Part shown: piece by piece, positions 6,878 through 39,331 of the stretch | Numbering within the stretch: the first letter of the stretch is position 1 | Layout: every line of letters begins with the position of its first letter | Origin: Dyella jiangningensis | GTDB lineage: Bacteria > Pseudomonadota > Gammaproteobacteria > Xanthomonadales > Rhodanobacteraceae | Assembly (NCBI GenBank): GCA_000632805.1 | Contig: CP007444.1 | Span: 3,584,772-3,648,771 of the forward strand | Direction: 5' to 3' | DNA length: 64,000 bases | The notes under the pieces: model-generated | What the model was told of the DNA's origin: nothing | The model's input: only the letters and a program-made list of their open reading frames with translations | The model's database searches: none | Translations under genes and position numbers: made by a program

Positions 6878-7165
6878 GAGGTCGTACCCATCCCATTAGT
6901 CCGTTTGTCAGCCCCCAACTGAGCTATCCAGCCGGCAATCGGCACCCATGTCACATCCCCGACCGGTCCAGCGTTGTCAGGGCGAACACATGGGATTGTT
7001 CGGGCCCGATCGTGAAGGCAGGCTGAGGCGCCTGACCTGCAGGCGGGGCCAGGTACAGGCTTCGCCCTGCCCCGGGGGCGCGACGCGACACGCGCCAGCG
7101 GCCGGCGCGATGCCTACCATGGACCGCGCTGCGGCCCGATGGATGGACGGGGGATATCGCCAGGA
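6878..7165. other. gene-free chromosomal spacer left of the element
   Basis: I see no convincing gene. Position 6915-6936, read on the minus strand, resembles the 5' end and D-arm of a tRNA (GCCGG...TAGCTCAGTTGG) with a two-base insertion and no matching 3' half, so it may be a tRNA remnant. The rest is G+C-rich spacer up to the attachment repeat. Confidence 0.4.
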
Positions 7166-7214
7166 TGGTGCCGGCAGCAGGAGTCGAACCCGCGACCTAC
7201 TGATTACAAATCAG
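7166..7214. repeat. left attachment repeat (3' part of tRNA-Thr)
   Basis: 49 bp identical to 39256-39304. Read on the minus strand it runs from the anticodon arm (CTGATTTGTAATCAG) through the T-arm and acceptor stem to CCA. No D-arm precedes it; the sequence diverges right after TCAG. This is the copy created by integration. Confidence 0.93.
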
Positions 7215-7273
7215 AATTAAAAACCCACGCAGACCGCATAGGAGCTAAACTTTGTAGAACATTATGCCCCTTT

Positions 7274-7295
7274 TGGGGGAATTGTGGGGGAATCC
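7274..7295 (+). repeat. left subterminal G-rich repeat
   Basis: Two tandem TGGGGGAAT-type blocks immediately before the integrase start. The same 22-bp sequence, differing at one base, is at 39157-39178 in the same orientation and at a similar distance from the other attachment repeat. Possible integrase or excisionase arm sites. The second block also places G-rich sequence just ahead of the integrase start. Confidence 0.7.
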
Positions 7296-7300
7296 GTTCA

Positions 7301-8353
7301 ATGGCGACATTTGAGAAACGTCCAGGTGGTTGGCGAGCCCAAGTTCGGCGCAAAGGTGCCAAGAGTATTAGCCGAACCTTTGATCTCCGCAAAGACGCTG
7401 AGGCCTGGGCCGCCGAGATCGAGCGCGAAATCCGCCGTGGCAATCTGGCTGTAGTCGATACGGCCACGACTAAGCTGACCTTTGGCGAGTGCGCCGACAA
7501 ATACGCCGCCGGTCCGCTCACCTCGCTCCGCTCCCGAAAGACATCTGAATTGTACCTGCTAAAGGCCCGTGCCCGGTTCGGCCCCAGCTTCATAACGGCC
7601 ATTCGCAACGCTGAGGTTGCGAAATGGAGGGATGCCCTTCTTGGGGAGGGTATGTCGCCGCGCTCCGTCGCCTACTGTCTATCGGTTCTGTCCACAGTCC
7701 TTACGTTTGCACAGCAGGAGCTGTCCGTGGCTCTGCCAGGCGGTAACCCCGTGAGCGCCGTACGGAAGCCCAGCCCACCCAAGGGTCGTGATCGGAGACT
7801 CTTGCCAGGTGAGCTAGTGGCCTTGCTACAGGCCGCCGATCGTTCGCGCGCCGTGGGACTGAGGCAGGCGATTGAACTCGCCATAGAAACGAGCATGCGC
7901 CTCAGTGAGATTGTTCATCTGGAATGGCGACACGTCGATTTGTCCGCCAAGACCGCGCACCTACCGGACACCAAGAACGGCGAAAGCAGGACCGTCGCCC
8001 TTTCGTCCGCAGCAGTGGCCGCCCTGTCTGCGCCGGCCCTATCCACGAAGCGTCGGGGCCGGGTATTCAGCAACTGGGGGACCAAATTCGCCCTCGAAAA
8101 AGCATGGGCAAACTGCCGGAAAAATGCCCTGTCAACGTACCTTGAGGAATGTACGGAGGCTCGCTCAGCACCGGATCCCGCGTTCCTCAACGACTTGCGC
8201 TTTCACGATCTTCGCCACGAGGCCACGAGCCGCCTTTTTGAGCGCGGCCTGGGAATCATGGAAGTGGCCAGCATGACTGGCCATAAGAGTCTCAGCATGC
8301 TGAAACGCTATACGCACGTTGACGCTGCGAGGCTGGCCGAAAAGCTCGGCTAG
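7301..8353 (+). CDS. int: tyrosine-type integrase
   Basis: Site-specific recombinase of 350 residues that integrates and excises the element at tRNA-Thr. The N-terminal arm-binding segment (FEKRPGGWRAQVRRKG) is followed by a SAM-like core-binding domain and the catalytic domain. The catalytic set is complete: Arg200 (TSMRLSEIV), Lys225 (DTKNGES), His302 and Arg305 (FHDLRHEAT), His328 (TGHKS) and Tyr337 (LKRYTH). I chose ATG 7301; the open frame extends back into the tRNA fragment and that part is not coding. It is the only gene between the left attachment site and the cargo and is read inward. Confidence 0.95.
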   Translation: MATFEKRPGGWRAQVRRKGAKSISRTFDLRKDAEAWAAEIEREIRRGNLAVVDTATTKLTFGECADKYAAGPLTSLRSRKTSELYLLKARARFGPSFITAIRNAEVAKWRDALLGEGMSPRSVAYCLSVLSTVLTFAQQELSVALPGGNPVSAVRKPSPPKGRDRRLLPGELVALLQAADRSRAVGLRQAIELAIETSMRLSEIVHLEWRHVDLSAKTAHLPDTKNGESRTVALSSAAVAALSAPALSTKRRGRVFSNWGTKFALEKAWANCRKNALSTYLEECTEARSAPDPAFLNDLRFHDLRHEATSRLFERGLGIMEVASMTGHKSLSMLKRYTHVDAARLAEKLG

Positions 8354-14401: not shown

Positions 14402-14556
14402 TGGCTCTCCGAGCCGTCTGGGGAACATGTTGTAGCCCCTACTTTCTCACGATCGCCTCTCTTTAATCACGGAAGCGCCGTGGCCGGTCCTGTCGCTGCG
14501 CGCAAGAAGTGCGCCGAATAATTGGTGTGACACATCGGATACCTCCAAGCCCCGAC

Positions 14557-14584
14557 CATGAGTGATTCAGTTGAATCGCTCATG
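14557..14584. promoter_or_regulatory. 28-bp near-perfect palindrome (family A)
   Basis: CATGAG-(T)-GATTCAGTTGAATC-(G)-CTCATG, with arms differing only at two pairs of positions. Its core belongs to the GTGATTCAACTGAATCAC family found at 18415-18627 and 35640-35888. It lies in the 200-bp gap between the lipoprotein gene (stop side) and the STAND gene (upstream side), so it could regulate the STAND gene or end the upstream transcript. Confidence 0.7.
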
Positions 14585-17881: not shown

Positions 17882-19036
17882 TTAACGGTGCAAAACGCGC
17901 TTCTCGTACAACCAGTCTTCAGGTGTGATTTCGCCCGCCGCCCGATACAGCGGCCGTTGGTGGCTGTCGAACAAGAACCGCATGCGTGATGCGTCTTGGC
18001 CGACAAACAGCCACAGGAATTTCCGGTCGAACTGAAATTTGGATCGGAACGGATATGTAGGCCCATCGTGCGTGTCATCGCCGAAGGCGTCGAAACCACG
18101 CAAGATCAGCAGCGTCGGCACTTGTCCGGGGCCACTATCGGTCGCTCCGCGTTGCCATCCGTCGAGGCGCTCTGTGATGGCGCATAGTCGCTCAACGGGC
18201 GCTGGCCGCAAGTCGATGACTTCGACCGAAATGCCCCGTACGGTGGCTGCTCGCGTTACCGCGTCGACGACGACCAGCTCCGCCGCGTCCGATGGACACA
18301 CCAAGCGCGCGGGCGTACTAAACGAGGGAGCCAGATGATGGATGAAGCCGCCTGCGATCTTCTCTGCGATCGCCTCGACCGTGCGTGTCGCGGCACGAGC
18401 CGGCGAGGTGCCAGGTGACTCAACTGAATCACCCGGGTGTAAGCCCACGTCTGGTGAGTCAGTTGACTCACTCCGGTGGCAACCCGTGCCTGGTGAGTCA
18501 GTTGACTCACTCGGGTGGCACCCCGTGCCTGGTGAGTCAGCTGACTCGCGCGGGTGGAGCGCCGTGCCGTGTGATTCAACTGAATCACACAGGTGTCCCC
18601 CCGGGCCTGGTGAGTCAGCTGACTCAGAATGTTCGAGGCTGGCCAGGTTGACTCGGTCCGGATCCTCACCCGAAGCCTGAAGCGCACTTTCAATAAATAC
18701 CTGAAGGCGATGAATGCGCCCCTTCAGGATCATTTCCATGGCCGAAGTTCCCCCAAGCATTGGGTTAGGCGCGCGAAACCACTTCTCAGCTTTCGCAGCA
18801 TCCCTTCCCAAGCCGATGGTTACCGCATTGGCAAGGTGTGCCAGTTGCAAAATAAAGTGGTCGGTCGTCATAGAGGGGGCACCGGATTCGCGAGTCCGTT
18901 GGACTGCCTCGGCCAGGTCCTCTGCGGATAGCGCAAACCAATCAAGTACTCGGTCGCGACGTGTGGCCCCGTTTTGCGCGAAGCCAAGCGGATCCAGGCC
19001 CTGAATTGAAATGGTTGGCTGAGAATTCACCACCAC
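17882..19036 (-). CDS. MbcA/ParS/Xre (DUF2384)-like protein with 13-residue palindrome-encoded repeats
   Basis: A 384-residue protein starting at one of three adjacent GTG codons behind GGAG. Residues ~25-118 look like the toxin-binding domain of MbcA/ParS-type antitoxins, with AEKWFRAPNPMLGGTSAMEMI followed by a GR...L end. Residues ~137-208 are six 13-residue repeats (ESTDSPGTGCHPS type), each encoded by a DNA palindrome. The C-terminal ~170 residues form an alpha/beta domain with an AAA-like strand TLLILRGFDAF but no Walker A. The gene overlaps the preceding one by 10 bp and is last in a run of related genes. No toxin gene follows it. Function unknown. Confidence 0.75.
   Translation of the reverse strand: MVVNSQPTISIQGLDPLGFAQNGATRRDRVLDWFALSAEDLAEAVQRTRESGAPSMTTDHFILQLAHLANAVTIGLGRDAAKAEKWFRAPNPMLGGTSAMEMILKGRIHRLQVFIESALQASGEDPDRVNLASLEHSESADSPGPGGHLCDSVESHGTALHPRESADSPGTGCHPSESTDSPGTGCHRSESTDSPDVGLHPGDSVESPGTSPARAATRTVEAIAEKIAGGFIHHLAPSFSTPARLVCPSDAAELVVVDAVTRAATVRGISVEVIDLRPAPVERLCAITERLDGWQRGATDSGPGQVPTLLILRGFDAFGDDTHDGPTYPFRSKFQFDRKFLWLFVGQDASRMRFLFDSHQRPLYRAAGEITPEDWLYEKRVLHR
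18415..18627. repeat. six 39-bp tandem repeats, each with an 18-bp palindrome (family A)
   Basis: Palindromes start at 18415, 18454, 18493, 18532, 18571 and 18610, exactly 39 bp apart. Core forms are GTGAGTCAGTTGACTCAC, GTGAGTCAGCTGACTCGC and GTGATTCAACTGAATCAC. The 21-bp spacers share a GGTG...CCGTGCCTG pattern, so the whole 39-bp unit has been duplicated. A half site may continue the array at about 18649. Since 39 is a multiple of three, the host gene's frame is kept. Confidence 0.95.
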
Positions 19037-19495: not shown

Positions 19496-19927
19496 CTACC
19501 AGTCAGCATCCGACGGCATGAAATCGTCACGCGCAGCCTTTATTGCCAGCGTTGGCGCGCTTGCCAGGACGTCTGCCGGACGCTTCCCGTCTAGGGAGCG
19601 CCTCCGTTGAAAAAGCCAATTAATGGTGGCCCACTCGCCAGTGTCGGAGGGGATCACGGCAAGGATCTCTGCCATCACGGGGCGAACATCACCCGCCGCC
19701 ACGTCGAATTGCACGTGCGGGTAAAGGTAAACCCCCTCGATCGTCACCCCTGCCAGCTTACGGGCTACCCGCAATTGTTCTGCGGTACGCCGCCGCCCTG
19801 CCTCCATCAATAGGTCATTGACCTGGCTCTCGGACAGCCATGTCTCATTGCCCAACAACCGCGCGCGCCGCTGGGCGCCCGCCACCTGAGGGCTAGGCAA
19901 TGCTGCAGAATGTGTTGACTTACGCAT
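19496..19927 (-). CDS. MbcA/ParS/Xre (DUF2384)-like protein
   Basis: A 143-residue paralogue of the gene downstream. After a basic N terminus, residues ~30-60 (ESQVNDLLMEAGRRRTAEQLRVAR) are helical. These are followed by the same layout: LAGVTIEGVYLYPHVQFD, then WATINWLFQRRRSLDGKRPADVLASAP and AIKAARDDF at the end. It likely belongs to the antitoxin-like family, but the WxxA/WL motif is the main support. The 250 bp upstream to 20181 have no convincing gene, although several frames are open there. Confidence 0.65.
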   Translation of the reverse strand: MRKSTHSAALPSPQVAGAQRRARLLGNETWLSESQVNDLLMEAGRRRTAEQLRVARKLAGVTIEGVYLYPHVQFDVAAGDVRPVMAEILAVIPSDTGEWATINWLFQRRRSLDGKRPADVLASAPTLAIKAARDDFMPSDADW

Positions 19928-20180: not shown

Positions 20181-20591
20181 TCAGAGAACGCCGTGTGCGG
20201 TTTGCAGCAGGAGCGATTCAATAGTGCGCGCGCCGGCACCCATTGTCGCCAATGTCAGCGGCGCGACCTCCGTCCCGTTGTTCATGTAGTCCGCCGGAGT
20301 GCGGAGCCACCTGACAGCTGCATCCACACTGCCGAATAGCTCAGTGGCGCTGGAAATCACAGCAATCAGGCGGGTCAGACGCTCGTTCTCAGCGTCGGCG
20401 AGAAACCCGGTGGCCTGGTCGTGCGGCCGTCGCTCGATCTGCTTGGGATGGGCGATCGCGGCCTCGATCTTCGACGCGAGTATCCGCAGGCCAGGCGTGT
20501 CACCCGTACCCAAACTGGCCACCGTGTCTGTTTGTTTCTTTGTTCGTTTCTTTGTTTCTTTGTTTCTTTGTTTCTTTCTTTGTTCTCTCAT
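20181..20591 (-). CDS. DUF2384-like protein with repeat-encoded Lys-rich N terminus
   Basis: A 136-residue protein whose C-terminal half matches the MbcA/ParS toxin-binding pattern: ATELFGSVDAAVRWLRTP, then VAPLTLATMGAGARTIESLL and HGVL. The first ~22 residues are a Lys/Arg/Thr/Gln run encoded by 8-bp tandem repeats. The start ATG at 20591 overlaps the preceding gene's TGA (ATGA), which fixes it and suggests translational coupling. Changing the 8-mer copy number would shift the frame right after the start, so expression may switch on and off. No toxin partner is recognised. Confidence 0.7.
   Translation of the reverse strand: MREQRKKQRNKETKKRTKKQTDTVASLGTGDTPGLRILASKIEAAIAHPKQIERRPHDQATGFLADAENERLTRLIAVISSATELFGSVDAAVRWLRTPADYMNNGTEVAPLTLATMGAGARTIESLLLQTAHGVL
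20546..20577. repeat. (GTTTCTTT)4 simple-sequence repeat in a 5' coding end
   Basis: Four perfect tandem 8-mers, with a fifth copy at 20534-20541 after GTTC. They lie within codons ~6-16 of the minus-strand gene starting at 20591. Eight is not a multiple of three, the hallmark of a phase-variable coding repeat. Confidence 0.85.
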
Positions 20592-24963: not shown

Positions 24964-27900
24964 TCACCTACCCAGGTCGTAGTCGTCGCGAGTCACCACG
25001 GGCGAACGGCCGCCCTTGGTTGCCGTATTCGCACGCTCGGCGAACTGATCTTTTTCCATGGGCGCGAAACCCTGATCGAAAGGGTTTGGCTGCGGCTTTA
25101 CTTGACTCAGGGTTTCACGCACGGCCCGATCTTCGACTTTGTTGTGGCCGTTCGCTTTGGCAAACTCGATTGCGCTGGTTTTGTCATGGCGGATACCGGT
25201 TTGCTCTAATGCCTTATCCAAATTCTGCGTGTAGACCCTCGCGTTGGCCTTGGCACGGGTGATGTTCACATACCACTCTCGCCATCCGTGTCGGCCTACT
25301 TCGGTGTTGTGATGAAGCCAGGCTGTGTCCTTGCCGTGGCCCTGCGATTTGAAACTGGTGTAGGTCGCCGCGTGATCGATCTTGAGCGCCTGGTCATTCG
25401 CCACGGCCACGCGCTGCGGCTCACCGTTGCCTTTGAGGTCCTGGATCAACAGCGTGGTCCGGTCAGCCTCGACGCGTTCGACTTGCGCGAACTGGCCGTT
25501 GATAACAGGTAGCTTGTCGCCATCGATCGTGGTGAGCCGGTGGTTTTCGGTGAATCGGATGCTGTCGCCGTTGGCGAGGCCTCTTGTTTCACGCTCGTAT
25601 GCTTCCAACGACACGCGTTTCGGGTCCACCGTGACGATGCGTTCGGGGTTGCTCAGGTCGCGTAGCTTCAGGGTGTTGGCGTGCTCATTGGCCCCAATCA
25701 CCTCGAACCGATCGCCTGGCTTCACCTGGTTGTCTTTTCCGGCGTCCATGACCTGGACCACGATTGGCTCGCGCGTCGGATCGGTCTGCTTGTACTGCAC
25801 GGCCTGCCCTTTTTCCTCCGCCGTCATAGCCAGCTTTTTCAGCGTGGTTACTTGTCGGTCTTGCTCGCCGAGCTGGCCGCGCTCTCGCAGGACCTCACGG
25901 ATTTCCCTATTGAGCGCCTTACGGTCGGCGTTCGTGCCCGTGATGATGATTGTGTGCTTGCGGTCCTCCGGGCTCAGTTCGGCGTAGTCGCGGGCCATGC
26001 GTTGGATAACTGCCCGATTGTCCACGCGAGCCGCCTCCCGCTTCGCGTCTCGATTGGCGTCCGGTTTCGCCATGGCCAGTCGGTCCTGCGCATCGCGCAC
26101 TTCCACCTTCTCGATGGCGTCGAAGGCTTGCTTGAGCTTTTCCGCGTCCGGCTTGTTGCCCATGCTATCCAGCGTGGCGGAGACGGCCTGTTTGGCCATG
26201 CTCCCATCCGCCTGGCGAACGATCGAATCACGGCCCAGCGATTTGGTGGGCAAGTGGTTGTTGTCCTGCAGGCGCTCGAAGGTTTTGCCCGCCTCCACTG
26301 ACTGGTGCTGGTTGACGTCGCCCAGCGACACCATCCGCGCGCCGGCCTTCTCGGCAGCCTTGGTCATCGCGTTGAATTCCTTGGTGCCAGACATGCTGGC
26401 CTCATCGTGGATCCAAAGTGCCTTGTTGCCTCGCACCGCCTCGCTTGAGGCTTGCTCCGCCAGGCGCTTCACCTCCTCGCTCCGGGCGGCCTCTCGGCCT
26501 TGGTGGATCTGGTGCTTTGCCCAAGCCTCCCGCAAGCCGGTGACCGGAGTGTTCTTCACCGCATGCAGCCGGTGTTCGGGCAGGTGACGGGGGCCGCGTG
26601 TGCGCACCTGGTCGCGTGACTTCTCTAGCAGAGCCTGCAGGCGCTCACGTTCGCCGGCCTGGCGCTCGCGATCCGCGCCACGCATGAGATGCTTGGCGTA
26701 GGCCGTTCGGAGCATGCCGGCTTTCTTGTAGTTGAGCTTGCCCTCGCCGAACAAACGCGTTTGGCGCTTTTCGGTAAAGACCACACCACCCTTGCCCTGC
26801 ACATACGAGCCGACGCGCCGCTCGTTCTTGAACATAGCCTCTGAATAGATCCAGCCCTCACGGTCCCGCACGTAACGCTGGCCCTGACCATCGAAGAAGA
26901 CGCCCGTCTTACAAGCCATCCGCTCGAAATCCACATGGGACTTCACCAGGCGGCCCTGTTCCCTTTCCCACGTGGCCAGCGCCGCCTGGGCTAGGTATCC
27001 ATCGTGCCCCAGCTCCCGCACGCCATCGGGATCGAGCACGTTGCCGTTGACGGTGGTGAACTGGTAGGTGCGGCCGTCGCTGCCCTGGTAATAGTCACCG
27101 GACTCCCGCGCTGGCTTCGGGTCGACCACGTTTTCCGCATAGAGGCTGCCGTCCTGGTGGCGGACATAGGCATTGCCACGGCTGTCGCGGATCAGCTCGC
27201 CTTGCTTGCTCAAGGCCTGCCAGTCCAGTTTGCGGGGGAGGAATCGGTCCTGCTCACGCTCCCATGTCGCCAAGGCGGCCTGCGCGAGCTGTGCGTCGCG
27301 AGCGGCCTTGGCCGTGGGGGCAGTGGTGTCCGTGGTGCCCGCCTTTTTCTCGTTGGCTAAGTGGCGGGCCGTGGTGGTCGACCGGATGCCGCTTTCGGCT
27401 TCCAGCTTGGCCGCCTGCTCCGCGCCGTTCGACATGCCGCGGATTTCCCAGCCCTTGGCATCCGCCGCTTCCCGCACGAATTCCAGCATGGTCGTTTTGC
27501 CGGTACCGGCCAAACCCTGCACGCCCTGAAACCGATCGTCGCCCGTCAGGATCGCGCAGGCGGCGGCCCTTTGCTCGTGGCTAAGTACAAAGTCCTTCTT
27601 GAATTCAGCGGTTTTGCGCGCTTGGAACGCAGCCAGTGCCTGGTCAAATTCTGCGCCGGTCATGACCGCGCGGTGCTGGCCATGGCCTGCCGACACGCGC
27701 GCCTCAATCTCGGCTTCCGCGGCGATACTGGCGCGCGCCGTGTACTTGCTGCCATCACGATCGCGTACCAGCTCGCCCCATTCGGTCATGTCCCTAATGG
27801 CCTGATCGATGGCCCCCCAGCGCGCCTGTCCGCGATTGAACGCGGCAATGGCTTTGTGCAACTGCTTTTCACTGAACACCATGTCCCGCTCGGACAGATG

Positions 27901-28851
27901 CGCCACGGCTCGCTTCACGGCCTCGCCGGCGGCTGCCGTTTCACTCGTCCATGTGGCATCAGCAACCAGCCGGTCGACCAGTGCCGGAGGCGCGATGCCC
28001 ACGGCGGCGGCTTGGCCTCGCCAGCGTTCGACATTGGCCTCCCGGGTCTCGATGTAATTTTTGGTCTTGGCGCGTGTGCTCAGAGCAACAGTTTCCCGTT
28101 GCTCTGCACTTGACCGCCCGCGATCCGTGCCACGGTCGGCGAGGGCTTCTTCGATTTCCTTTGAGCGCTTGGAGAACTCGCGCATCTGTTCGCGGCTGTA
28201 GTCCGCCAGTTCCACCCTGCCCTGCTTGTCGTGTTCGACCTGGTAGCCGGCTTGTTGCAAACCGCGGCTCAACTCTTGGTGATAGATAGCATCCGCCGTC
28301 GCATAGCGATCAAACAGGCTTCTACTGTGCAGGCTGTAGGCCCTGCCTTCGTACATGGTGACGTTGGCCACAAGCACGTGCGCGTGGAGCTGCGGATCAC
28401 CCTGCCGGCTGGTCACATGCTCGTATTGGGCCATGACCAGGTTGCCGGTGCGCACGTCGTCGCCCTTGATCCGGGCCTCTACCCGCTCCTCGAGGTACTG
28501 CATGGCGGCCCGTACGGCCTGCCGGTGGGCATCGCGCACGTCGTCCCGGCCAAAGGCCAGCGCCGCCATGCTGACGCTCTTGGGCGCACTGATAGTGAAA
28601 TCCCAGCCCTTCCTGTGCTCAATGCTGCCGTCTTTGGCTTGCCGGCCCAGCACCTGGCCGTTGACCTGGCCGTTAAGCACGGCCTCAAGCGGGCCGTGCT
28701 CAACACCACCAGACAAGCCCAGGTGCGCTGCGCCCTTGCCCGCCCACTGGTTGGGGATACCCTCGCCCTGGTAGTACTCCGCGGCCTTCGCTACATCGGA
28801 GTAATAACGGGCCGCGTCTTTGGCGCTACTGATTTCGCTGGGTCGAATCAT
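24964..28851 (-). CDS. traI: MobF/TrwC-type conjugative relaxase-helicase
   Basis: A 1295-residue protein that nicks DNA at oriT and unwinds it for transfer. N-terminal relaxase: the tyrosine pairs of RYYSDVAKAAEYYQGEG, then GWDFTISAPKSVS, and the metal-binding histidines in DPQLHAHVLVANVT. C-terminal RecD-like helicase: Walker A GLAGTGKTTM near residues 444-452, the DEASM motif II near 814, and the late motif TYTSFKSQGHGKD. Between motifs I and II about 360 residues are present, far more than usual, including two related ~95-residue units beginning AQAALATWEREQ (near 525 and 620). The gene starts three bases after the coupling-protein stop, in the transfer operon. Confidence 0.93.
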   Translation of the reverse strand: MIRPSEISSAKDAARYYSDVAKAAEYYQGEGIPNQWAGKGAAHLGLSGGVEHGPLEAVLNGQVNGQVLGRQAKDGSIEHRKGWDFTISAPKSVSMAALAFGRDDVRDAHRQAVRAAMQYLEERVEARIKGDDVRTGNLVMAQYEHVTSRQGDPQLHAHVLVANVTMYEGRAYSLHSRSLFDRYATADAIYHQELSRGLQQAGYQVEHDKQGRVELADYSREQMREFSKRSKEIEEALADRGTDRGRSSAEQRETVALSTRAKTKNYIETREANVERWRGQAAAVGIAPPALVDRLVADATWTSETAAAGEAVKRAVAHLSERDMVFSEKQLHKAIAAFNRGQARWGAIDQAIRDMTEWGELVRDRDGSKYTARASIAAEAEIEARVSAGHGQHRAVMTGAEFDQALAAFQARKTAEFKKDFVLSHEQRAAACAILTGDDRFQGVQGLAGTGKTTMLEFVREAADAKGWEIRGMSNGAEQAAKLEAESGIRSTTTARHLANEKKAGTTDTTAPTAKAARDAQLAQAALATWEREQDRFLPRKLDWQALSKQGELIRDSRGNAYVRHQDGSLYAENVVDPKPARESGDYYQGSDGRTYQFTTVNGNVLDPDGVRELGHDGYLAQAALATWEREQGRLVKSHVDFERMACKTGVFFDGQGQRYVRDREGWIYSEAMFKNERRVGSYVQGKGGVVFTEKRQTRLFGEGKLNYKKAGMLRTAYAKHLMRGADRERQAGERERLQALLEKSRDQVRTRGPRHLPEHRLHAVKNTPVTGLREAWAKHQIHQGREAARSEEVKRLAEQASSEAVRGNKALWIHDEASMSGTKEFNAMTKAAEKAGARMVSLGDVNQHQSVEAGKTFERLQDNNHLPTKSLGRDSIVRQADGSMAKQAVSATLDSMGNKPDAEKLKQAFDAIEKVEVRDAQDRLAMAKPDANRDAKREAARVDNRAVIQRMARDYAELSPEDRKHTIIITGTNADRKALNREIREVLRERGQLGEQDRQVTTLKKLAMTAEEKGQAVQYKQTDPTREPIVVQVMDAGKDNQVKPGDRFEVIGANEHANTLKLRDLSNPERIVTVDPKRVSLEAYERETRGLANGDSIRFTENHRLTTIDGDKLPVINGQFAQVERVEADRTTLLIQDLKGNGEPQRVAVANDQALKIDHAATYTSFKSQGHGKDTAWLHHNTEVGRHGWREWYVNITRAKANARVYTQNLDKALEQTGIRHDKTSAIEFAKANGHNKVEDRAVRETLSQVKPQPNPFDQGFAPMEKDQFAERANTATKGGRSPVVTRDDYDLGR

Positions 28852-28854
28852 GGG

Positions 28855-30699
28855 TTAATTCCATCCCTCAAAATCGTCGTGGCCACTGTGTTCCCACTGC
28901 TCGGGCACGTCGTGATCGGGTGGGTCATCGCTCACGTCACAGATGGATCCCATCTCATCGTCAGCTGACGCGTCGGCCGCAGGGTCCGTGCTATGCAATT
29001 TGGCGCTGGCTGTCTCGACCACCTGCAACACCGGGTTCTTTTCGACCAGCAACTCTCTCGGCATCGCACCGAATTTCCACGCCTGACTCTCGATGAATGG
29101 TTCTGCCACGCTGGGGCGATGGGGACCAAACGGCTGTACCAGTTGGCCAATGACGTCGCCGATATGAAGTAACAGCAGCGGGCCGTCCGACGTCACCTTC
29201 AAACCAAGCAGGTCCGAGGGATTGAGCACATCGCGCGAATCGGCACGCATTGTTTTACCCTGCAAAGCGCCGTTCTGTGCCGTGGTTTCGATTAACAGAA
29301 TGTCCCGCTTACCTATCCGTTGCGCCACCTCGGCCGCAAAGTTTGCTTCCGCCGCCATGTAAATACGCGTGCGCTGCACTTTAAGGACAGGCTCGGCTTT
29401 GTCGCGGCCCAACAAGGCCGCGATCTGGCTTTCCTCCTGCAGGGCGAGAACCTCGCGAACTCCGCGCGATCGCCCCAGCTCTGCAATGTTCTGAATGTGA
29501 ACAATGCTGCCGGCACCAAGTTGCGGGAATTCATCAAGCACCATCCACGTGCCACGTTCATCAGCGGACACCTCTGGCATCATCGCCGAGTTGACCGTCT
29601 CTGCCATCACGGCCAAGACGCTGCCGAAGATCGCGCCGCCCGCCGCCTTGTACATCGCGTTGTTGTTCAGGATCACTGTCAGCACATCGCTGTGCGCTTT
29701 CCCGATAAGCCACCCGCGCATGCTGAACATGCGTTTTCCATCCGTATCGACGGCCGCCACCTGGAGCAACCAATCGGTGGCGTTCTTAAGGGTCGAAAGC
29801 ACGCTCTGTTCTTGCTTGTTCGGCACGCCGCCGGACTGTGGCGAAAGAAGAAAGGCGAAATCGCCAGCCACGCGGGGGTCACCGATGGCGGCCGTGGCAA
29901 CATAGCCTGCCGGCGGCCGGTTCAAGATCGCGCCAAGCTCGCCCCATGAGATTTTTTCGCCGTTCCGCATGAAGGCCAAGAGGATGCCGGCGAGCACACC
30001 GGCCGCGCCTTCGACAAAGAACTTGCCCTCGCCGGTCGCACTGGCCACGCCGCAAACAGCCTTGGCGAATTCCTTGGCCAGCGCCGGACTGTCTATGTCC
30101 GCGCCAATGTCCCAAAGGTGCGATCGCTCGTCCCAAAGGCCAAGTAACACCGTGTTACTGGCGTCGTAGTAGACTGCAAGCAGGTCGTTCTTCGGGTCAT
30201 GGATCAATAGGCGGTCGCCTCGGCCTCGCACCTGGTCGATGATCGCCTTGAGCAGTACTGTCTTGCCGGCTCCGGGCAAGCCCGAAACAACGATGTGCTC
30301 CGTTTCGCGCGCACGGGAAAGCTCCACCCCACCGATCACCAAGCCCTGCACGCGAACCGTCGCCTCATCATTGCCTTGCTTGGCCGGATGCTGCCGGTCG
30401 CTCATCTTGTCGCGCTCCTGGGCATCCAGCAGCGCGGTAGCCTTGGCCGTATCTGCCTCGTAGCGGACGCCGCGAACGTGATGCTCGGCTTGCTGCCGCG
30501 AGGCGTACCACGCACCGGACGCTCCACCGGCCAACGCCGACGCCCAAAGCAAGGCTGCCCGGAACGTATCAGCGAAGTCACCACCAACGGGGGAAAAGGT
30601 GCCCAGGCCACAGGTAAACGGCGACGTGGCCACGATCGCCGCCGCAGCACCCAGCACCGCACCGATCATCGTTTCTTCGATTCGTACTTTGATAAGCAT
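28855..30699 (-). CDS. traD: type IV coupling protein (VirD4/TraD-like ATPase)
   Basis: A 614-residue membrane ATPase that docks relaxase-DNA at a mating channel. Start MLIKVRIEETMIGAVLG at 30699 with GGGAG 7 bp upstream; the longer frame is rejected. Two hydrophobic segments lie in the first ~70 residues. Walker A GLPGAGKTVLL is near residue 138, and RLLIHDPKND follows as in VirD4 proteins. Walker B WMVLDEFPQLG is near 383, followed by ALQEESQIAALLG. The C-terminal tail is acidic (ADASADDEMGS...), as in TraD relatives that bind partners. No T4SS genes are adjacent, so a helper channel is needed. Confidence 0.9.
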   Translation of the reverse strand: MLIKVRIEETMIGAVLGAAAAIVATSPFTCGLGTFSPVGGDFADTFRAALLWASALAGGASGAWYASRQQAEHHVRGVRYEADTAKATALLDAQERDKMSDRQHPAKQGNDEATVRVQGLVIGGVELSRARETEHIVVSGLPGAGKTVLLKAIIDQVRGRGDRLLIHDPKNDLLAVYYDASNTVLLGLWDERSHLWDIGADIDSPALAKEFAKAVCGVASATGEGKFFVEGAAGVLAGILLAFMRNGEKISWGELGAILNRPPAGYVATAAIGDPRVAGDFAFLLSPQSGGVPNKQEQSVLSTLKNATDWLLQVAAVDTDGKRMFSMRGWLIGKAHSDVLTVILNNNAMYKAAGGAIFGSVLAVMAETVNSAMMPEVSADERGTWMVLDEFPQLGAGSIVHIQNIAELGRSRGVREVLALQEESQIAALLGRDKAEPVLKVQRTRIYMAAEANFAAEVAQRIGKRDILLIETTAQNGALQGKTMRADSRDVLNPSDLLGLKVTSDGPLLLLHIGDVIGQLVQPFGPHRPSVAEPFIESQAWKFGAMPRELLVEKNPVLQVVETASAKLHSTDPAADASADDEMGSICDVSDDPPDHDVPEQWEHSGHDDFEGWN

Positions 30700-30753
30700 G
30701 CCAACTCCCAAAAAGCGCGGTGCGCCATCACTGACGCACCGCACACGAAGCGC

Positions 30754-34546: not shown

Positions 34547-34770
34547 TGGCTCTCCCTAAAGTTCTGTACTGCTGAAATTGGCGTTCCGCGTCAGTCGCAC
34601 ACAAAGCGAAATACCCTTCAGTCTTCTGTGGCACTGGAGAACCATTGCCCTGCAAGACGTTGCAGGACTTGGATAGACGCTTTTGGAGAGCAAGCGAGAT
34701 GCGCGCTGTGGCACGCGCAAACACTTAAACGGAGCGGATTTTCAGCATCCCGTAGGGATGAGTAGTGTGT

Positions 34771-34811
34771 GCCCCTTTTTAGGGGCATAGGGCAGCCCAG
34801 CGGGGCTGCCC
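34771..34811 (-). terminator. two adjacent hairpins
   Basis: GCCCC-TTTTT-AGGGGC at 34771-34786 and GGGCAGCCC/GGGCTGCCC at 34790-34811. They lie about 225 bp upstream of the minus-strand transfer operon and may separate transcription units or be part of oriT. Confidence 0.45.
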
Positions 34812-35010
34812 GGCAATCGTCGCTCCAGCGCTTGAAGTGGTGCCGGCCAGGAGATGTAGCGAAGCAAACGGTGCATCGTGCGTGGCCACTAATGACGATC
34901 GCCCGTGATGCAATTTAAACCGAGCCAAGGATCACGGATTGATCGGTGACTGCGCATCACCAACTGGCCAAACGTGCAGGCACGAATCGAACGCAAGCAC
35001 GACACCGCTG

Positions 35011-35080
35011 GTGTTTGGTGTTTGGTGTTTGGTGTTTGGTGTTTGGTGTTTGGTGTTTGGTGTTTGGTGTTTGGTGTTTG
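35011..35080. repeat. (GTGTTTG)10 tandem repeat
   Basis: Ten perfect 7-bp units, then a degenerate GTGCATG unit. It is not in any gene I accept. Iteron-like tandem arrays beside relaxase genes can be sites for accessory proteins, and perfect short repeats also vary in length. Confidence 0.95.
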
Positions 35081-35106
35081 GTGCATGGTGCTCATACACC
35101 ACAGCA

Positions 35107-35189
35107 AATGCGTGTTAGCCGATACGGCGGCCGACCTATCGAGGCCAGGATGGCGCAACGGGCAACCTTAGTCGGTCGTAACACGCATT
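35107..35189. promoter_or_regulatory. 11-bp inverted repeat, 61 bp apart
   Basis: AATGCGTGTTA at 35107-35117 and its exact reverse complement at 35179-35189. A further half-like copy (AACACGC...GCGCGTTAATGCGTG) follows near 35219-35248, just upstream of the XRE gene. Likely operator or oriT structure. Confidence 0.6.
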
Positions 35190-35322
35190 ACATATCGAGA
35201 TAAGGTCGTTTTCTTGGTCAACACGCTTTTTGATGCGCGTTAATGCGTGGTCATATGGGAGTTCTAACCCCGCTATCCTCGGCGCTTATCTAACAAGCAA
35301 ATAAGGAGCTTCGCGAAGACAC

Positions 35323-35643
35323 ATGGAATCAACACCGAGAACTACAGAGGCAATTCTCGAGGACGTTGGCAGGAGGATCAAAGACCAACGGATCAGGTTG
35401 GGGCATAGCCAGGTGGAGTTGGCCAAGTTGGCCAATGTGTCCCCACGGGCTATTCAGAATCTAGAAGCAGGCCACAACTCGACCATGCTGACATTTGTAC
35501 GTGTGCTTCGAGCCATGGGCGTGGAGGAGGATTTAAACGCCATCGTACCGATACCTTCGATTAGCCCCATGGCGATGCTTCGGCGCTCAAAGCGAAATCT
35601 CCGGGTGGGTCGCCCCAGAGGTTCTATATCGAATCAGGAATGA
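35323..35643 (+). CDS. XRE-family transcriptional regulator
   Basis: A 106-residue protein with a Cro/C1-type helix-turn-helix at residues ~12-70: VGRRIKDQRIRLGHSQVELAKLANVSPRAIQNLEAG, then FVRVLRAMGVEEDL. The basic C-terminal tail (RRSKRNLRVGRPRG) may contact DNA. It reads away from the transfer operon, the usual layout for a conjugation repressor. A small palindrome (CTTCGCGAAG) stands between AAGGAG and the ATG, so translation or autoregulation may act there. The TGA stop is itself part of an A-type palindrome. Confidence 0.85.
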   Translation: MESTPRTTEAILEDVGRRIKDQRIRLGHSQVELAKLANVSPRAIQNLEAGHNSTMLTFVRVLRAMGVEEDLNAIVPIPSISPMAMLRRSKRNLRVGRPRGSISNQE

Positions 35644-35963
35644 TTCAACTGAATCACCCCCTTGCTCGGTGCTGCCCATCGTCCCGGCAAGTCCAACTCC
35701 CGCTGGCCGGATCCACGCCACTGACAAGCGGTGAACCGATTCATCTCACCGCTTTGCGCAATACGTGAGTCAGCTGACTCGCTACGGACCTTCCCTCCAC
35801 TTACCCCGTTGCACAGGCCTGATCATGCACTTCGAAGTGAACCGATCCGGTTCACCACCCTGCGCGCTACGTGAGTCAGCTGACTCACCACGAAGCTTCC
35901 TTGCGCTTACCCCTTGCACCTGCCGCTGAGTCACGCAATCCGATGTGAACCGACCCGGTTCAC
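35640..35963. repeat. alternating A and B palindromes in ~106-bp tandem units
   Basis: A sites (TGATTCAACTGAATCA or GTGAGTCAGCTGACTCAC) at 35640-35657, 35765-35782 and 35871-35888. B sites at 35727-35753 (degenerate), 35837-35855 (GTGAACCGATCCGGTTCAC) and 35945-35963. In two successive units the B and A centres are 33-34 bp apart and the units repeat every ~106 bp with shared flanks (CTTACCCC...TTGCAC). An extra half A site is near 35927. The array lies between two convergent genes (XRE gene on the left, winged-helix gene on the right), so it is not a promoter region. Confidence 0.93.
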
Positions 35964-36127
35964 CGCTCTGGGCCACAGCCGTACTCCGTCTCCCGTCAGC
36001 GTAGGTGTACAGTGGCTCTCGTTCTTCCACCTCTTTCGTCCAACCAACTCTGGTCTTTCGCGTGTGCGCGCGTCTCATGGTTGGGTTGGTTTTCATAGAA
36101 GAGCTTCAATCTTGTAGAGCGGTTGAT

Positions 36128-37360
36128 TTAGTGCATCGAAATTTGTGCAACGCCATTGCCAGTGGGCGTCGCACTGATGCCGCGCAATACGGCGCCACGC
36201 CAGTCTTGCGTGAACCCTCGAGGCGTCGTCCACGTTCCGCGAGCGATGATGGAAATGATGATTCGCACAGATGCCAGTTGATCGCCGTTGGCCAGATTTC
36301 CAAGGGTGGCGGCAAAGGCGATTTCATCGATGAGCTGCCCCGCCCGCTTGTCTCCCGCAAGAGCTACGAGACGCGAATATTTCTCCCAAATTGCGTTCGC
36401 CAAGAGTGGGTGGGCGCGCGTCGGCACGGCTTGGATTGCGGCAGAGGCTTTGTTTGCGCGAGGTTGCTCCCGCTTAGGGGCAAGGCTCATCAGACATTCG
36501 ACTTCAGTGTCAGTAAGGTTCCACGCCGCGTCGATGTCCTGACGGCGAAGGGTCCCACGCATCACTTCGTAGACCGCACCTGGTACCTTGGCCCTGACGG
36601 CAGCGTGGAGCTCGTCGCTGTAGATGGTCTGGTGCGCGGGTACCGTGTCCTCGTCTGCTGCGCCACCGTCCATGGGGGCGCGGTGGAGCGTGGACGGATC
36701 GGGGTCGGGGCGGTCCGAATGGACCCGGTCAGAAGCACCTGTTTCCGCATCCGTGAGTCGGGCCGACTCATTGTGACACCGCAATAGAGTGGTTGGACGG
36801 CAGTCGACGTCTTCGATGCTCGCGTGTACCTGGCCGACGTCAGGCGCGGTCTCTGAATCGGGTATGCGCTGGCCTATGTAGCCTGTGGGATTGCTGAGTC
36901 GGGCCGACTCAGTAGGTGCGTTGCCGGTATCGTTCAGGCCGTCACGGCAGCCGGTACCTGGGCTGGTTCGCGTTTTGCGCAGCTCACGGACGTATTGGGC
37001 GGCTGGCCCAATAAGGGTTGTGCGCGTTGGGGCACCACGCGCTGTCACAGTTGTCCGCCGCACGAGGCCTGCATCGGCGAGAGAGGTATACGCGGCGCCT
37101 ACAGCGTTTCGATGAAGATTCAGGCGATCAGCAAGCCATTGCGTAGTCACCGATTCCGTTACGCGGCCTTGGCGCATGAGGCGGGCAAGCGTATCGAGTG
37201 CGACACGGTAGCCAGCTGCTGTGAGGTCTGCGCGAACCAGCCGTTCAAAGAGTTCGGCTGCATTGATCGCGACCTGGTCGATCATGGCCTGGCGTTCGCT
37301 TGGGCACGGCTTAGCGGCCCTCGGAGCGAACTCATGGGCCTTCGCAGAGGCGTGGTTCAT
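36128..37360 (-). CDS. winged-helix DNA-binding protein, possible replication/regulatory protein
   Basis: A 410-residue protein starting MNHASAKAHEF at 37360, sharing the A of the previous gene's TAA (TAATG). Residues ~65-110 look like a winged helix: VTTQWLADRLNLHRNAVGAAYTSLADAGLVRRTTVTARG. A long, Asp/Ser/Thr-rich linker (~130-240) follows, in which two C palindromes encode ESARL. The C-terminal part is helical (ANAIWEKYSRLVALAGDKRAGQLIDEIAFA; LASVRIIISIIARGTWTTPRGF). The layout resembles replication-initiation or STY4528-like proteins of integrative elements, but I cannot confirm that. Last gene of a three-gene operon. Confidence 0.65.
   Translation of the reverse strand: MNHASAKAHEFAPRAAKPCPSERQAMIDQVAINAAELFERLVRADLTAAGYRVALDTLARLMRQGRVTESVTTQWLADRLNLHRNAVGAAYTSLADAGLVRRTTVTARGAPTRTTLIGPAAQYVRELRKTRTSPGTGCRDGLNDTGNAPTESARLSNPTGYIGQRIPDSETAPDVGQVHASIEDVDCRPTTLLRCHNESARLTDAETGASDRVHSDRPDPDPSTLHRAPMDGGAADEDTVPAHQTIYSDELHAAVRAKVPGAVYEVMRGTLRRQDIDAAWNLTDTEVECLMSLAPKREQPRANKASAAIQAVPTRAHPLLANAIWEKYSRLVALAGDKRAGQLIDEIAFAATLGNLANGDQLASVRIIISIIARGTWTTPRGFTQDWRGAVLRGISATPTGNGVAQISMH
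36754..36770. repeat. palindrome, family C (copy 1)
   Basis: TGAGTCGG-G-CCGACTCA, 17 bp, arms perfect. Inside the coding sequence of the winged-helix gene, in the low-complexity linker. Confidence 0.9.
36894..36912. repeat. palindrome, family C (copy 2)
   Basis: CTGAGTCGG-G-CCGACTCAG, 19 bp, arms perfect, 140 bp from copy 1 and also in the linker-coding part of the winged-helix gene. Confidence 0.9.
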
Positions 37361-37932
37361 TAGATCAGCCCCCAACCAAAGCCGGCGAAACCCAGCTGCC
37401 CTGCGACAATGGCGCGTTGACGTTGGGCGTCCAATTGCTGCACCCGGCGGCGAGTACGATGTGCTGTCCTGGCCCGGCTGGCCGTGGAGCGAACAAGCTG
37501 CACCATCGCATCGGATGATGTTTCGCTCGCTTCCTCCGCCTCCTCGGCTTCCAGGAGGATGGCCAACGGATCGGAAACCTCGCCCTGGACGTAAGCCGCA
37601 GTGGCCGCATCGAGCTCGAAGTCCGTCACGTAGACGGCTTGACGACCGCGAGAGCCACCGGCGCGCCGTGCGCGACGGTCAGCAGAACGCGCGTACCCTG
37701 CGGCAGACTGATTGCTGCTAGTGAAGCCATTCTGAGCGAGCCACATATCCCCAACAAGTTCGGGGCTCTTACGCAAGGCGACGCATAGCTCTATCGATAA
37801 CCCGTGACGTCGGGCTTGCTGTGATATGGTGTCGTCAGATGCCGTCTCAAAGGGGCGTGTATCTACATCCAGCTCGATAGCGGTGTCGGCCGCTATCGAG
37901 CTTTTTTCGTTTAGGTAGAGGAGATGTGTCAT
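37360..37932 (-). CDS. hypothetical protein in the winged-helix operon
   Basis: A 190-residue protein with no recognised domain. Residues ~85-105 are basic (YARSADRRARRAGGSRGRQA). An acidic stretch follows at ~130-140 (LEAEEAEEASE), then an Arg-rich helix (ASRARTAHRTRRRVQQLDAQRQR). It ends at GFGWGLI. The ATG at 37932 overlaps the upstream gene's stop (ATGA) and its own TAA shares an A with the next ATG, so all three genes are coupled. The charge pattern suggests nucleic-acid binding or a scaffolding role, without proof. Confidence 0.6.
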   Translation of the reverse strand: MTHLLYLNEKSSIAADTAIELDVDTRPFETASDDTISQQARRHGLSIELCVALRKSPELVGDMWLAQNGFTSSNQSAAGYARSADRRARRAGGSRGRQAVYVTDFELDAATAAYVQGEVSDPLAILLEAEEAEEASETSSDAMVQLVRSTASRARTAHRTRRRVQQLDAQRQRAIVAGQLGFAGFGWGLI

Positions 37933-38342
37933 GCCACATCTCCCATGCTCTTCGGGATGGCTTTTCGCGGACGACCACGGCGCCTCGGGGAAGGCGTCGC
38001 CACAACTTCGCTGGATGTAACAACGACAGCAGCCGGCGCGATGCGGTCAAGGGTCTCTGGGCCGGTGAAGGGAACGTTCCCGGTTGCCAAGAGAGTAGCA
38101 ACGAGCCGCTCGTGCTCCACTCGTGGAACGAGACGACGGTTGCCGAACAGGACAGTGCGAATCGGATACTGACCTCGCGAAATCAGGTTCCGAATCGAGT
38201 TGAGGGGAAGATTGATCTCTCTTGAGTGCTCTGCAAGGGAAAGAAACAGCTTGGCGTTAGCTGCCTCATGCGGAGTATCAAAGACGCAATTCAAATCGCG
38301 CACCGACACTGGCGCGCCCTTCTGACAGGAGACGTGGGACAT
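37929..38342 (-). CDS. AlpA/excisionase-like DNA-binding protein
   Basis: A 137-residue protein starting at ATG 38342. Residues ~35-80 (LAEHSREINLPLNSIRNLISRGQYPIRTVLFGNRRLVPRVEHERLVATLL) read as a MerR/AlpA-type winged helix as in excisionases and phage activators. The C-terminal end is basic (SPRRRGRPRKAIP). It is first in a three-gene operon near the element's right end. Excision control is the natural guess for its role. Its ribosome-binding site lies inside a small inverted repeat. Confidence 0.6.
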   Translation of the reverse strand: MSHVSCQKGAPVSVRDLNCVFDTPHEAANAKLFLSLAEHSREINLPLNSIRNLISRGQYPIRTVLFGNRRLVPRVEHERLVATLLATGNVPFTGPETLDRIAPAAVVVTSSEVVATPSPRRRGRPRKAIPKSMGDVA

Positions 38343-38344
38343 AA

Positions 38345-38367
38345 CAGGTTCCTAAAAGGAACCCCTG
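38345..38367 (-). promoter_or_regulatory. inverted repeat enclosing the ribosome-binding site
   Basis: CAGGTTCC-TAAAA-GGAACCCCTG, read on the minus strand, contains the AGGAAC site of the excisionase-like gene and ends three bases before its ATG. It could be an operator or a translational hairpin. The next ~70 bp to 38437 are very G+C-rich. Confidence 0.5.
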
Positions 38368-38422
38368 TGCGCCCTTATCGGGGGCGCGGCGCCCGCGCGG
38401 GACGGGGCCGATAACCCGCGCG

Positions 38423-38848
38423 CTATGCGCCGCGGGCCTGAGTCGGAATAGGCAAGAAGCGGGGAGAGAGCGTCAGAGCGATGAGCCCTGCACGCTCGCG
38501 AAGCATGCGAACAAAAGCGCGCGAATCACGATCTGCACGAGCAGCGCGATCAACGGCAACGCCAGAGGCCAACGCTGACAACTCTCGGGTGATCGGTTCT
38601 TCGAAACTAGCCACCACCTGCCGGTCCATGCGCCAAGCATGGCGCCACTGCCGCCGCATCAAACTCCCGAGACGGCGTGATAGCGCCGTCACAAGCTGGG
38701 CGAAAACCCCAACAGCACCAACGCCAATGGCCGCGTACGCCGATGCGTTTAGCAGGCAATGCATGGTCAAGACACCGGCGAAGCACATGGCAATCAAACC
38801 GAGTCCGATCATCGGGGCGATGATCGTCTTGAGCTCGTCGAGCTTCAT
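38423..38848 (-). CDS. membrane protein near the right end
   Basis: A protein of about 141 residues, starting MKLDELKTIIAPMIGLGLIAMCF. It has two hydrophobic helices (~8-30 and ~35-60, AYAAIGVGAVGVFAQLVTALS) and a basic cytoplasmic tail (RRLGSLMRRQWRHAWRMDRQ). The open frame extends upstream to 39232, but that part has no clear ribosome-binding site and runs into the terminal repeat, so the start is uncertain; an intermediate Met is possible. No domain recognised. Confidence 0.5.
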   Translation of the reverse strand: MKLDELKTIIAPMIGLGLIAMCFAGVLTMHCLLNASAYAAIGVGAVGVFAQLVTALSRRLGSLMRRQWRHAWRMDRQVVASFEEPITRELSALASGVAVDRAARADRDSRAFVRMLRERAGLIALTLSPRFLPIPTQARGA

Positions 38849-39255
38849 GTTTCTGTGTGCGTTGCTCCCGACGCGCACCGCCTTGCGGATATGCATCCAT
38901 CCACGACGCTGCGACAACAGACGCCAGATTGTCTGAAGGAAGCTCGTGGAATGAGGGATCAGGGAGTGCTGCATTGGGATAACAGCGTATCTCAATGGTG
39001 ATGACGACCGCACATAACGGCTGACGCCAAACATCACTGACGATTCAAGGCTGAGAACTACATCACACTTACGCATCGGCTTGGTCCCGTGATAGCCATG
39101 AGCTGGCGAGGAGGGGGAGCCGCGGGGGATGCGTCCTGTTATACGCTGTGACACGGTGGGGGAATTCTGGGGGAATCCCCCTCCAAAATCCCCGCTCGCA
39201 ATCAGCAACATGGTCAAACAGCATGACCTCAAATTACTGATATTGCGGGCTTTTC
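38849..39255. other. right-end spacer of the element
   Basis: Apart from the frame of the preceding gene, which may start further upstream, I see no gene. The G-rich repeat 39157-39178 is here, followed by ~75 bp up to the attachment repeat, a normal place for integrase or excisionase arm sites. Confidence 0.5.
39157..39178 (+). repeat. right subterminal G-rich repeat
   Basis: Matches 7274-7295 at 21 of 22 positions in the same orientation. It is 77 bp inside the right attachment repeat; the left copy is 59 bp inside the left one. Confidence 0.7.
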
Positions 39256-39304
39256 TGGTGCCGGCAGCAGGAGTCGAACCCGCGACCTACTGATTACAAA
39301 TCAG
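39256..39304. repeat. right attachment repeat within tRNA-Thr
   Basis: 49 bp identical to 7166-7214; the match ends inside the anticodon arm right after CAG. Confidence 0.93.
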
Positions 39305-39331
39305 TTGCTCTACCAACTGAGCTATACCGGC
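39256..39331 (-). tRNA. tRNA-Thr (anticodon TGT)
   Basis: 76 nt including an encoded CCA. Acceptor stem GCCGGTA/TGCCGGC with one G-T pair, D-arm TAGCTCAGTTGGTAGAGC, anticodon arm ACTGA-TTTGTAA-TCAGT with TGT in the anticodon position, T-arm with GGTTCGA. It is the integration target of the element. The 3' 49 bases are shared with the left attachment repeat. Confidence 0.97.

Follow-up and report, generated by a model that had tools for sequence, protein, structure and literature searches.

Palindrome arrays on a Dyella island and two large Rhodanobacter plasmids may mark an unrecognised type of plasmid-style replication origin

We have analysed an array of palindromes in a 64,000-nucleotide stretch of the Dyella jiangningensis genome (the window, from whose first letter all unprefixed positions are counted), together with related sites on plasmids and in other genomes. 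The array, referred to as array 2, lies on a mobile island next to the gene for P0001, a protein with a predicted winged-helix domain. The reading we favour, held with moderate confidence and drawn from sequence comparison, is that replication of the island, once excised and circular, starts in array 2 as an iteron-type origin with P0001 as the initiator; the island and two large plasmids may carry an unrecognised type of plasmid-style origin. That P0001, or a protein of its kind, binds the dyads appears quite probable. If correct, this reading would supply Rhodanobacter plasmids of about 200 kb, for which the gene tables list no initiator, with a candidate for both initiator and origin. Integrated Dyella islands would then carry the same replicon and spend part of their life as plasmid-like elements. 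Specificity could also be studied in a natural set, as each of the five related winged-helix proteins is accompanied by a dyad variant of its own.

Array 2 (35641-35963) consists of three A and three B palindromes in alternation, flanked, as an earlier note on this DNA had described, by convergent genes, the XRE gene (35323-35643, +) and the P0001 gene (36128-37375, -). The centre-to-centre steps are, in order, 91.5, 33.5, 72.5, 33.5 and 74.5 bp, and the near-constant B-to-A spacing noted previously was borne out, a distance of 33.5 bp being found twice. Repetition is seen over 77 bp at a distance of 106 bp (79% identity) and over 43 bp at a distance of 108 bp (81% identity). The tandem unit of ~106 bp proposed earlier is therefore recognisable, but the steps and repeats define only two complete B-A units, with one extra A before and one extra B after them. 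The first A site does overlap the stop codon of the XRE gene.

These dyads are not explained by chance. Between 35640 and 36127, five perfect dyads with 7-bp arms were counted against a shuffle mean of 0.13 (no more than 2 in any of 1000 shuffles), and the four consensus dyads compare with a mean of 0.004 in 500 shuffles. Both matches of the B pattern GTGAACCGNNCCGGTTCAC in the 5.4-Mb genome fall within array 2, and the loose A pattern TGANTCANNTGANTCA occurs at seven places in the genome, every one inside the island. Array 2 itself is not AT-rich, although one of the island's 15 stretches of lowest GC content is found at 35166-35340. A search of Rfam across 34600-38500 gave no match at E≤0.5. 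Two further repeats were observed in this vicinity. The 7-bp unit TGGTGTT is repeated perfectly in tandem, in 10.7 copies, at 35009-35083 and could be part of the origin; the second Dyella island described below has a similar repeat close to one of its A sites (G008:C1 about 727775-727865), the two being 88% identical over 91 bp. Repeats of the AACACGC/GCGTGTT type, read by eye at 35090-35260, 5' of the XRE gene, look like separate XRE operators.

On their sequence, A and B belong to a single dyad class, TGANYC-N4/5-GRNTCA, and are not unrelated; the two families described earlier can be distinguished, but only as variants within this class. All window sites except B site 1 fit it, three of them with one mismatch. 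The class is represented elsewhere on the island by array 1, by two sites within the P0001 gene and by a single dyad (Table 1), all of which had escaped the earlier note. Position 4 of the arms is occupied by G-C, T-A or A-T, the two bases being complementary in 13 of 14 window sites and in all 8 sites of the second Dyella island, a pattern expected of a dimer-binding site. In the sites of plasmid W01 (see below), positions 4 and 5 are mostly asymmetric, being complementary in 1 of 7 and 2 of 7, respectively. The sites compared in this way were chosen from the consensus scan, plus R. denitrificans variants picked by hand, with the degenerate B site 1, the W01 site at the end of parA and weaker scan matches excluded.

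Table 1. Features of the island discussed in the text, with their positions in the window.
Feature	Position	Strand	Remarks
Left att, 49-bp perfect direct repeat	7166..7214	none	
Tyrosine integrase of the island	7139..8353	+	
Single near-consensus dyad (TGATTCAGTTGAATCG)	14563..14578	none	upstream of gene starting at 14428
P0005	17882..19036	-	N-part matching Xre/MbcA/ParS C-terminal domain, site-encoded middle, C-part
Array 1, six A-type sites	18416..18626	none	exact 39-bp step; within P0005 gene
TrwC-family relaxase	24964..28851	-	
TrwB-type coupling protein	28855..30744	-	
XRE-type regulator	35323..35643	+	no match in second Dyella island (G008)
A site 1 (TGATTCAACTGAATCA)	35641..35656	none	overlaps XRE stop codon, TGA 35641-35643
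B site 1	35731..35749	none	right arm degenerate, 3 mismatches
A site 2	35766..35781	none	one mismatch to consensus
B site 2 (GTGAACCGATCCGGTTCAC)	35837..35855	none	
A site 3	35872..35887	none	dyad perfect
B site 3 (GTGAACCGACCCGGTTCAC)	35945..35963	none	
AACCAAC...GTTGG inverted repeat	36040..36091	-	just beyond P0001 stop; fold z -3.2
P0001, 415 aa	36128..37375	-	winged-helix N-domain (RGAPTRT motif), probably disordered linker, helical C-part
17-bp site in P0001 gene	36754..36770	none	residues 202-208
17-bp site in P0001 gene	36895..36911	none	residues 155-161
P0003, partner of P0001	37360..37932	-	kept in both Dyella islands; no known domain
P0004, possible Cox-like small DNA-binding protein	37929..38342	-	weak PHROG match, E 0.011
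Hypothetical protein at tRNA end	38423..39232	-	kept in second Dyella island
Right att, 49-bp repeat	39256..39304	none	within tRNA-Thr(TGT) gene 39256-39331

The 49-bp att repeats, one of them in a tRNA-Thr gene, combined with a tyrosine integrase, a TrwC-family relaxase and a TrwB-type coupling protein, indicate that the island, as judged from its sequence, is a 32-kb integrative mobilizable element. A Pfam scan of 28 island ORFs detected neither a ParA/ParB family nor, apart from the coupling protein, any family of secretion systems. A related island is present in Dyella amyloliquefaciens (G008, locus L013), with an integrase 87% identical to that of the window and the same 49-bp sequence at the end opposite the integrase, about 53 kb apart. 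Of the window genes compared, it shares the integrase, the P0005 trio, the gene at 38423, P0004, P0003 and P0001, together with a partial match to the adhesin gene, and it gave no tblastn match to TrwC, TrwB or XRE. Four sites lie in its P0001 gene (two with one mismatch), three in its P0005 gene and one elsewhere; a consensus scan beside its P0001 gene found none.

The gene content of this second island bears on two alternative explanations. The relaxase, coupling protein and integrase of the window island would be compatible with a role of the sites in transfer or recombination, serving oriT, excision or strand exchange. This is very unlikely, as the second island keeps the sites in the absence of a TrwC or TrwB match and the att sites are some 3 and 11 kb away from the window arrays. 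Alternatively, A and B could be an operator array bound by the neighbouring XRE protein, as adjacency and the overlap of the first A site with the XRE stop codon would suggest; this is extremely unlikely, since the second island has the same sites without an XRE match and the window sites lie at the end of the XRE gene, not at its promoter. XRE was consequently dropped as the binder of A and B. In tblastn searches of the fetched regions, XRE matched nothing outside the window, and P0003, P0004 and P0005 with its two partners matched only the second Dyella island. P0003 and P0005 had no match in the whole plasmid collection, the corresponding search for XRE and P0004 covering 41 kb of each plasmid.

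Relatives of P0001 were found on the circular Rhodanobacter plasmids W01 (205 kb) and W02 (218 kb), and in the genomes of the second Dyella island and of a further strain, G098 (single-protein scan, 3 of 197 genomes). In another genome (G419), a 4.2-Mb contig encodes the ParA, ParB and P0001-like proteins of W01 (G419:C1 about 2095880-2100300), and, going by this contig, a W01-type replicon may be capable of integration. Five elements were therefore considered, the window, G008, W01, W02 and G098, with the W01 copies in G419 and L014 not counted separately. The P0001 family is the sole tested protein found in all five. ParA and ParB of the plasmids are present in W01, W02 and G098 and have no tblastn match in either Dyella island. 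As the Dyella islands lack a ParAB match and XRE was found in the window only, P0001 is the best candidate for the protein that binds the dyads. The link to the winged-helix operon of the island suggested in the earlier note is thus upheld in that the sites accompany the P0001 family across elements.

The position of the sites is similar between elements and their sequence is element-specific. In W01, W02 and G098, a ParA-ParB gene pair is followed by a gap containing dyads and then by the P0001-like gene. Dyad variants lie beside this gene in four of the five elements (window, W01, W02 and G098) and inside it in four (window, G008, W01 and G098), no consensus site being detected within the W02 gene. 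Arms in the Dyella islands are TGAGTC/TGATTC, plus TGAACC in B; those in W02 and G098 are TGACCC with a spacer of 5 bp, and those in W01 are GAACCAACTGA(A/C)TC. Nine sites with no more than one mismatch occur within the P0001-like genes of these four elements, at residues 122-208 and in two reading frames, encoding ESARL, ESADS, ESSAS, DSTES, DSVES, EPTES, TQIGS and TQPGS. These differing peptides indicate that it is the DNA pattern, and not the peptide, which recurs. A conserved ORF across the plasmid arrays was considered and rejected; long open frames are present in three gaps, and the shared ATGAC-TAG end in L008 lies outside the long frame.

A second feature is common to all five elements. 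AACCAAC, followed by GTTGG 43-54 nt on, is found 34-97 nt beyond the stop codon of the P0001-like gene in each, AACCAAC being expected about 0.006 times per 130 nt as estimated from the window. By sequence, the AACCAAC/GTTGG repeat is a further cis-element tied to the P0001-like gene. The fold computed for L010, from a fragment without the left arm of the hairpin, is not counted.

In a three-way alignment, the N-terminal domain of P0001 is 44% and 57% identical to its counterparts, compared with 29-37% for the whole protein, and the motifs HRN and RGAPTRT are invariant in this domain. The AlphaFold model of the domain is a winged helix (pLDDT 87). The full-length model has a pLDDT of 40 and was used for secondary structure only; residues from about 137 to 253 have no predicted secondary structure and the C-terminal end is helical at low confidence. 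Winged-helix proteins were among its top matches. Those of viral origin comprise many unnamed HTH proteins, besides initiator proteins, RepL, a replication protein C and an N-terminal lambda GpO protein. PHROG matched P0001 weakly to a replication initiation protein (E 0.019) and P0007 also weakly (0.039 and 0.078), and the G098 relative (L011) to replication initiation at 3.4e-5 and to an O-like family at 1.4e-4; P0006 gave no initiator match and L010 none to a replication family. RepA_N (PF06970) gave no match in any of five family members at E≤1, and Rep_3 was not found above the cutoff in the family, L011 alone giving Rep3_N at E 0.36. The best E value of a P0001 profile against PDB sequences was 0.032.

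Foldseek comparison of the N-terminal domain with the PDB ranked MarR/ArsR-type regulators first. This ranking, together with the lone near-consensus dyad 5' of the gene starting at 14428, would suit a regulatory role, with P0001 acting as a MarR-like repressor or activator on dyads that serve as operators, looping sites or roadblocks. Such a role is distinctly improbable given the position of the sites: the window clusters lie in convergent or coding DNA, and 11 of the 13 consensus matches on the two plasmids (4 of 5 in W01, 7 of 8 in W02) are gathered in a single stretch, between parB and the P0001-like gene or within that gene, and not at scattered promoters.

Random scatter of the unit in chromosomes was named in the earlier note as grounds for refutation. 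The strict A pattern TGAKTCARYTGAMTCA was found in 3 of 233 family genomes, at 6 places in G000, 6 in G008 and 1 in G069, so that 12 of 13 places belong to the two genomes with a Dyella-type P0001, which bear the island. The loose dyad class, on the other hand, does have scattered matches: 14 of its 21 matches in G008 and 11 of its 14 in G098 lie elsewhere in the genome, as do 19 of 26 in the D. jiangningensis genome when scanned with a spacer of 3-4. Among them are two identical dyads, TGATTCGGTCCGAATCA, observed 71 bp apart in G098, away from the P0001-like locus (G098:C1:672132-672219).

A second control, on P0005, agrees with that on the strict A pattern in tying the sites to P0001. Both Dyella P0005 genes carry a cluster of sites, six and three, respectively. 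No exact site, and a single match with one mismatch (L065), was found at 15 loci of about 3.1-3.5 kb which contain relatives of P0005 parts in 14 other genomes; 12 of these genomes were covered by the P0001 scans, G856 and G802 lying outside them, and one (G116) has a match to the P0001 profile over the winged helix only. When the order was scanned with this profile, 23 of 398 genomes matched at E≤0.001. Matches of near full length were restricted to G000, G008 and G419, the other 20 genomes matching around the winged helix only; G098 is absent from this list. A scan of the class detected P0001 in 1 of 369 genomes, its own, at 1e-8, and a search of genome contigs yielded two loci. Two scans of viral contigs gave no P0001 relative, and 56 of them with one A site each were taken as background.

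The plasmids bear on whether the arrays are origins or centromeres. The gene tables, which cover W01 completely and W02 in all but 2.3 kb and are stated to be incomplete, list no replication initiator, and Pfam detected no initiator family among ten W01 proteins, one of which is KfrA_N. The cumulative GC-skew minimum lies at 74,956 in W01, with sites at 79.6-80.8 kb, and at 166,342 in W02, with sites at 173.7-174.4 kb, that is, 5-8 kb from the array in each. After strand correction, 8% and 18% of plasmid positions match or beat the array, and the skew therefore constitutes support, not proof, and is only suggestive. It cannot separate an origin from an adjoining centromere, and the parAB genes next door could share the signal. 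No DnaA box with up to one mismatch was found in the stretches scanned around the window, W01 (L007) and W02 (L008) arrays; one was found in the L011 stretch.

The main rival to an origin is a centromere. In this view the arrays would act in partition, with ParB as the binding protein on the plasmids and either P0001 or some unknown factor in its place on the Dyella islands. In the three elements which encode ParAB, the arrays are directly 3' of parAB, and one W01 site lies at the end of parA. In sopC, the partition site of the SopABC system of the F plasmid, a unit of about 40 bp that contains an inverted repeat is repeated in tandem. Array 1, in which tandem 39-bp units each contain a 16-bp dyad, resembles it, as does the position of the plasmid arrays 3' of parB; it differs in that array 1 lies within a coding gene and the Dyella islands have no ParA/ParB match. 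We consider a centromere unlikely, since these islands keep the sites without a tblastn match to ParA or ParB, the in-gene sites accompany P0001 and not parB, and no ATPase partner was identified for a P0001-based system. The earlier proposal of an origin or centromere in preference to an operator agrees with the location of the clusters in convergent or coding DNA and, on the plasmids, near a GC-skew minimum, but a centromere is the less favoured part of that proposal, ParAB having no match in either Dyella island.

An origin with P0001 as initiator would have parallels in known replicons. Lambda O has a winged-helix fold, and its repeats lie at the position of the linker. The lambda origin is described as lying inside the O gene, with repeats bound by the N-terminal half of O (PMC4488673). 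P0001 is comparable in its predicted winged helix, site-encoded linker and C-terminal part and in having putative sites inside its own gene, but sequence similarity between lambda O and the P0001 family is weak, and the sites here are 16-19-bp dyads that form several clusters, some of them beyond the P0001 gene or within another gene. SGI1 is reported as an integrative mobilizable element that replicates via its own RepA, a Rep_3 family protein, from an origin 3' of repA (S004-repA, oriV) with 16-bp direct repeats and putative DnaA boxes (PMC7826253). The likeness lies in an integrated mobilizable island with repeats just 3' of the initiator gene, here a candidate; in contrast, the P0001 family has no Rep_3 match above the cutoff and the window array no DnaA box. 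In the RepA_N replicon of PLE, as presented in PMC7145576 and PMC8263062, an element-encoded initiator has a DNA-binding N-terminal domain and semi-palindromic iterons, and initiator domain and origin co-vary between elements. P0001 is likewise an element-encoded candidate initiator with a predicted DNA-binding N-terminal domain, and its dyad variants differ between elements, but no RepA_N match was found in the family. The likeness of P0001 to all three systems is thus one of layout.

In the origin reading, P0001 dimers would bind TGANYC-N4/5-GRNTCA dyads beside and within the P0001 gene, and, once bound, these dimers would bring about DNA opening and recruitment of the host replisome, so that the excised island would gain a plasmid-like phase. 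Array 1 would represent an extra binding cluster, possibly for copy control, pairing or as a second origin. More tentatively, and with doubt prevailing, these elements could represent an undescribed class of replicon on islands and large plasmids of the Rhodanobacteraceae, in which a winged-helix initiator acts on dyads located in gene linkers, its own and, on the Dyella islands, that of the fused P0005 with its 39-bp array, linker and site shape each other, and distant arrays pair to control replication.

The C-terminal part of P0005 occurs as a separate protein in other genera, and its sequence suggests that two proteins which those genera encode separately have been fused in P0005, with the 39-bp array at the junction. 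Additional genes of the Xre/MbcA/ParS C-terminal domain type lie near P0005, at 19496-19927 (a weak match) and 20181-20591; no toxin partner was identified for the genes of this type near P0005. A short tandem repeat of the TTTGTTTC type is present at 20529-20585, at the start of the 20181-20591 gene, where it could possibly give rise to phase variation.
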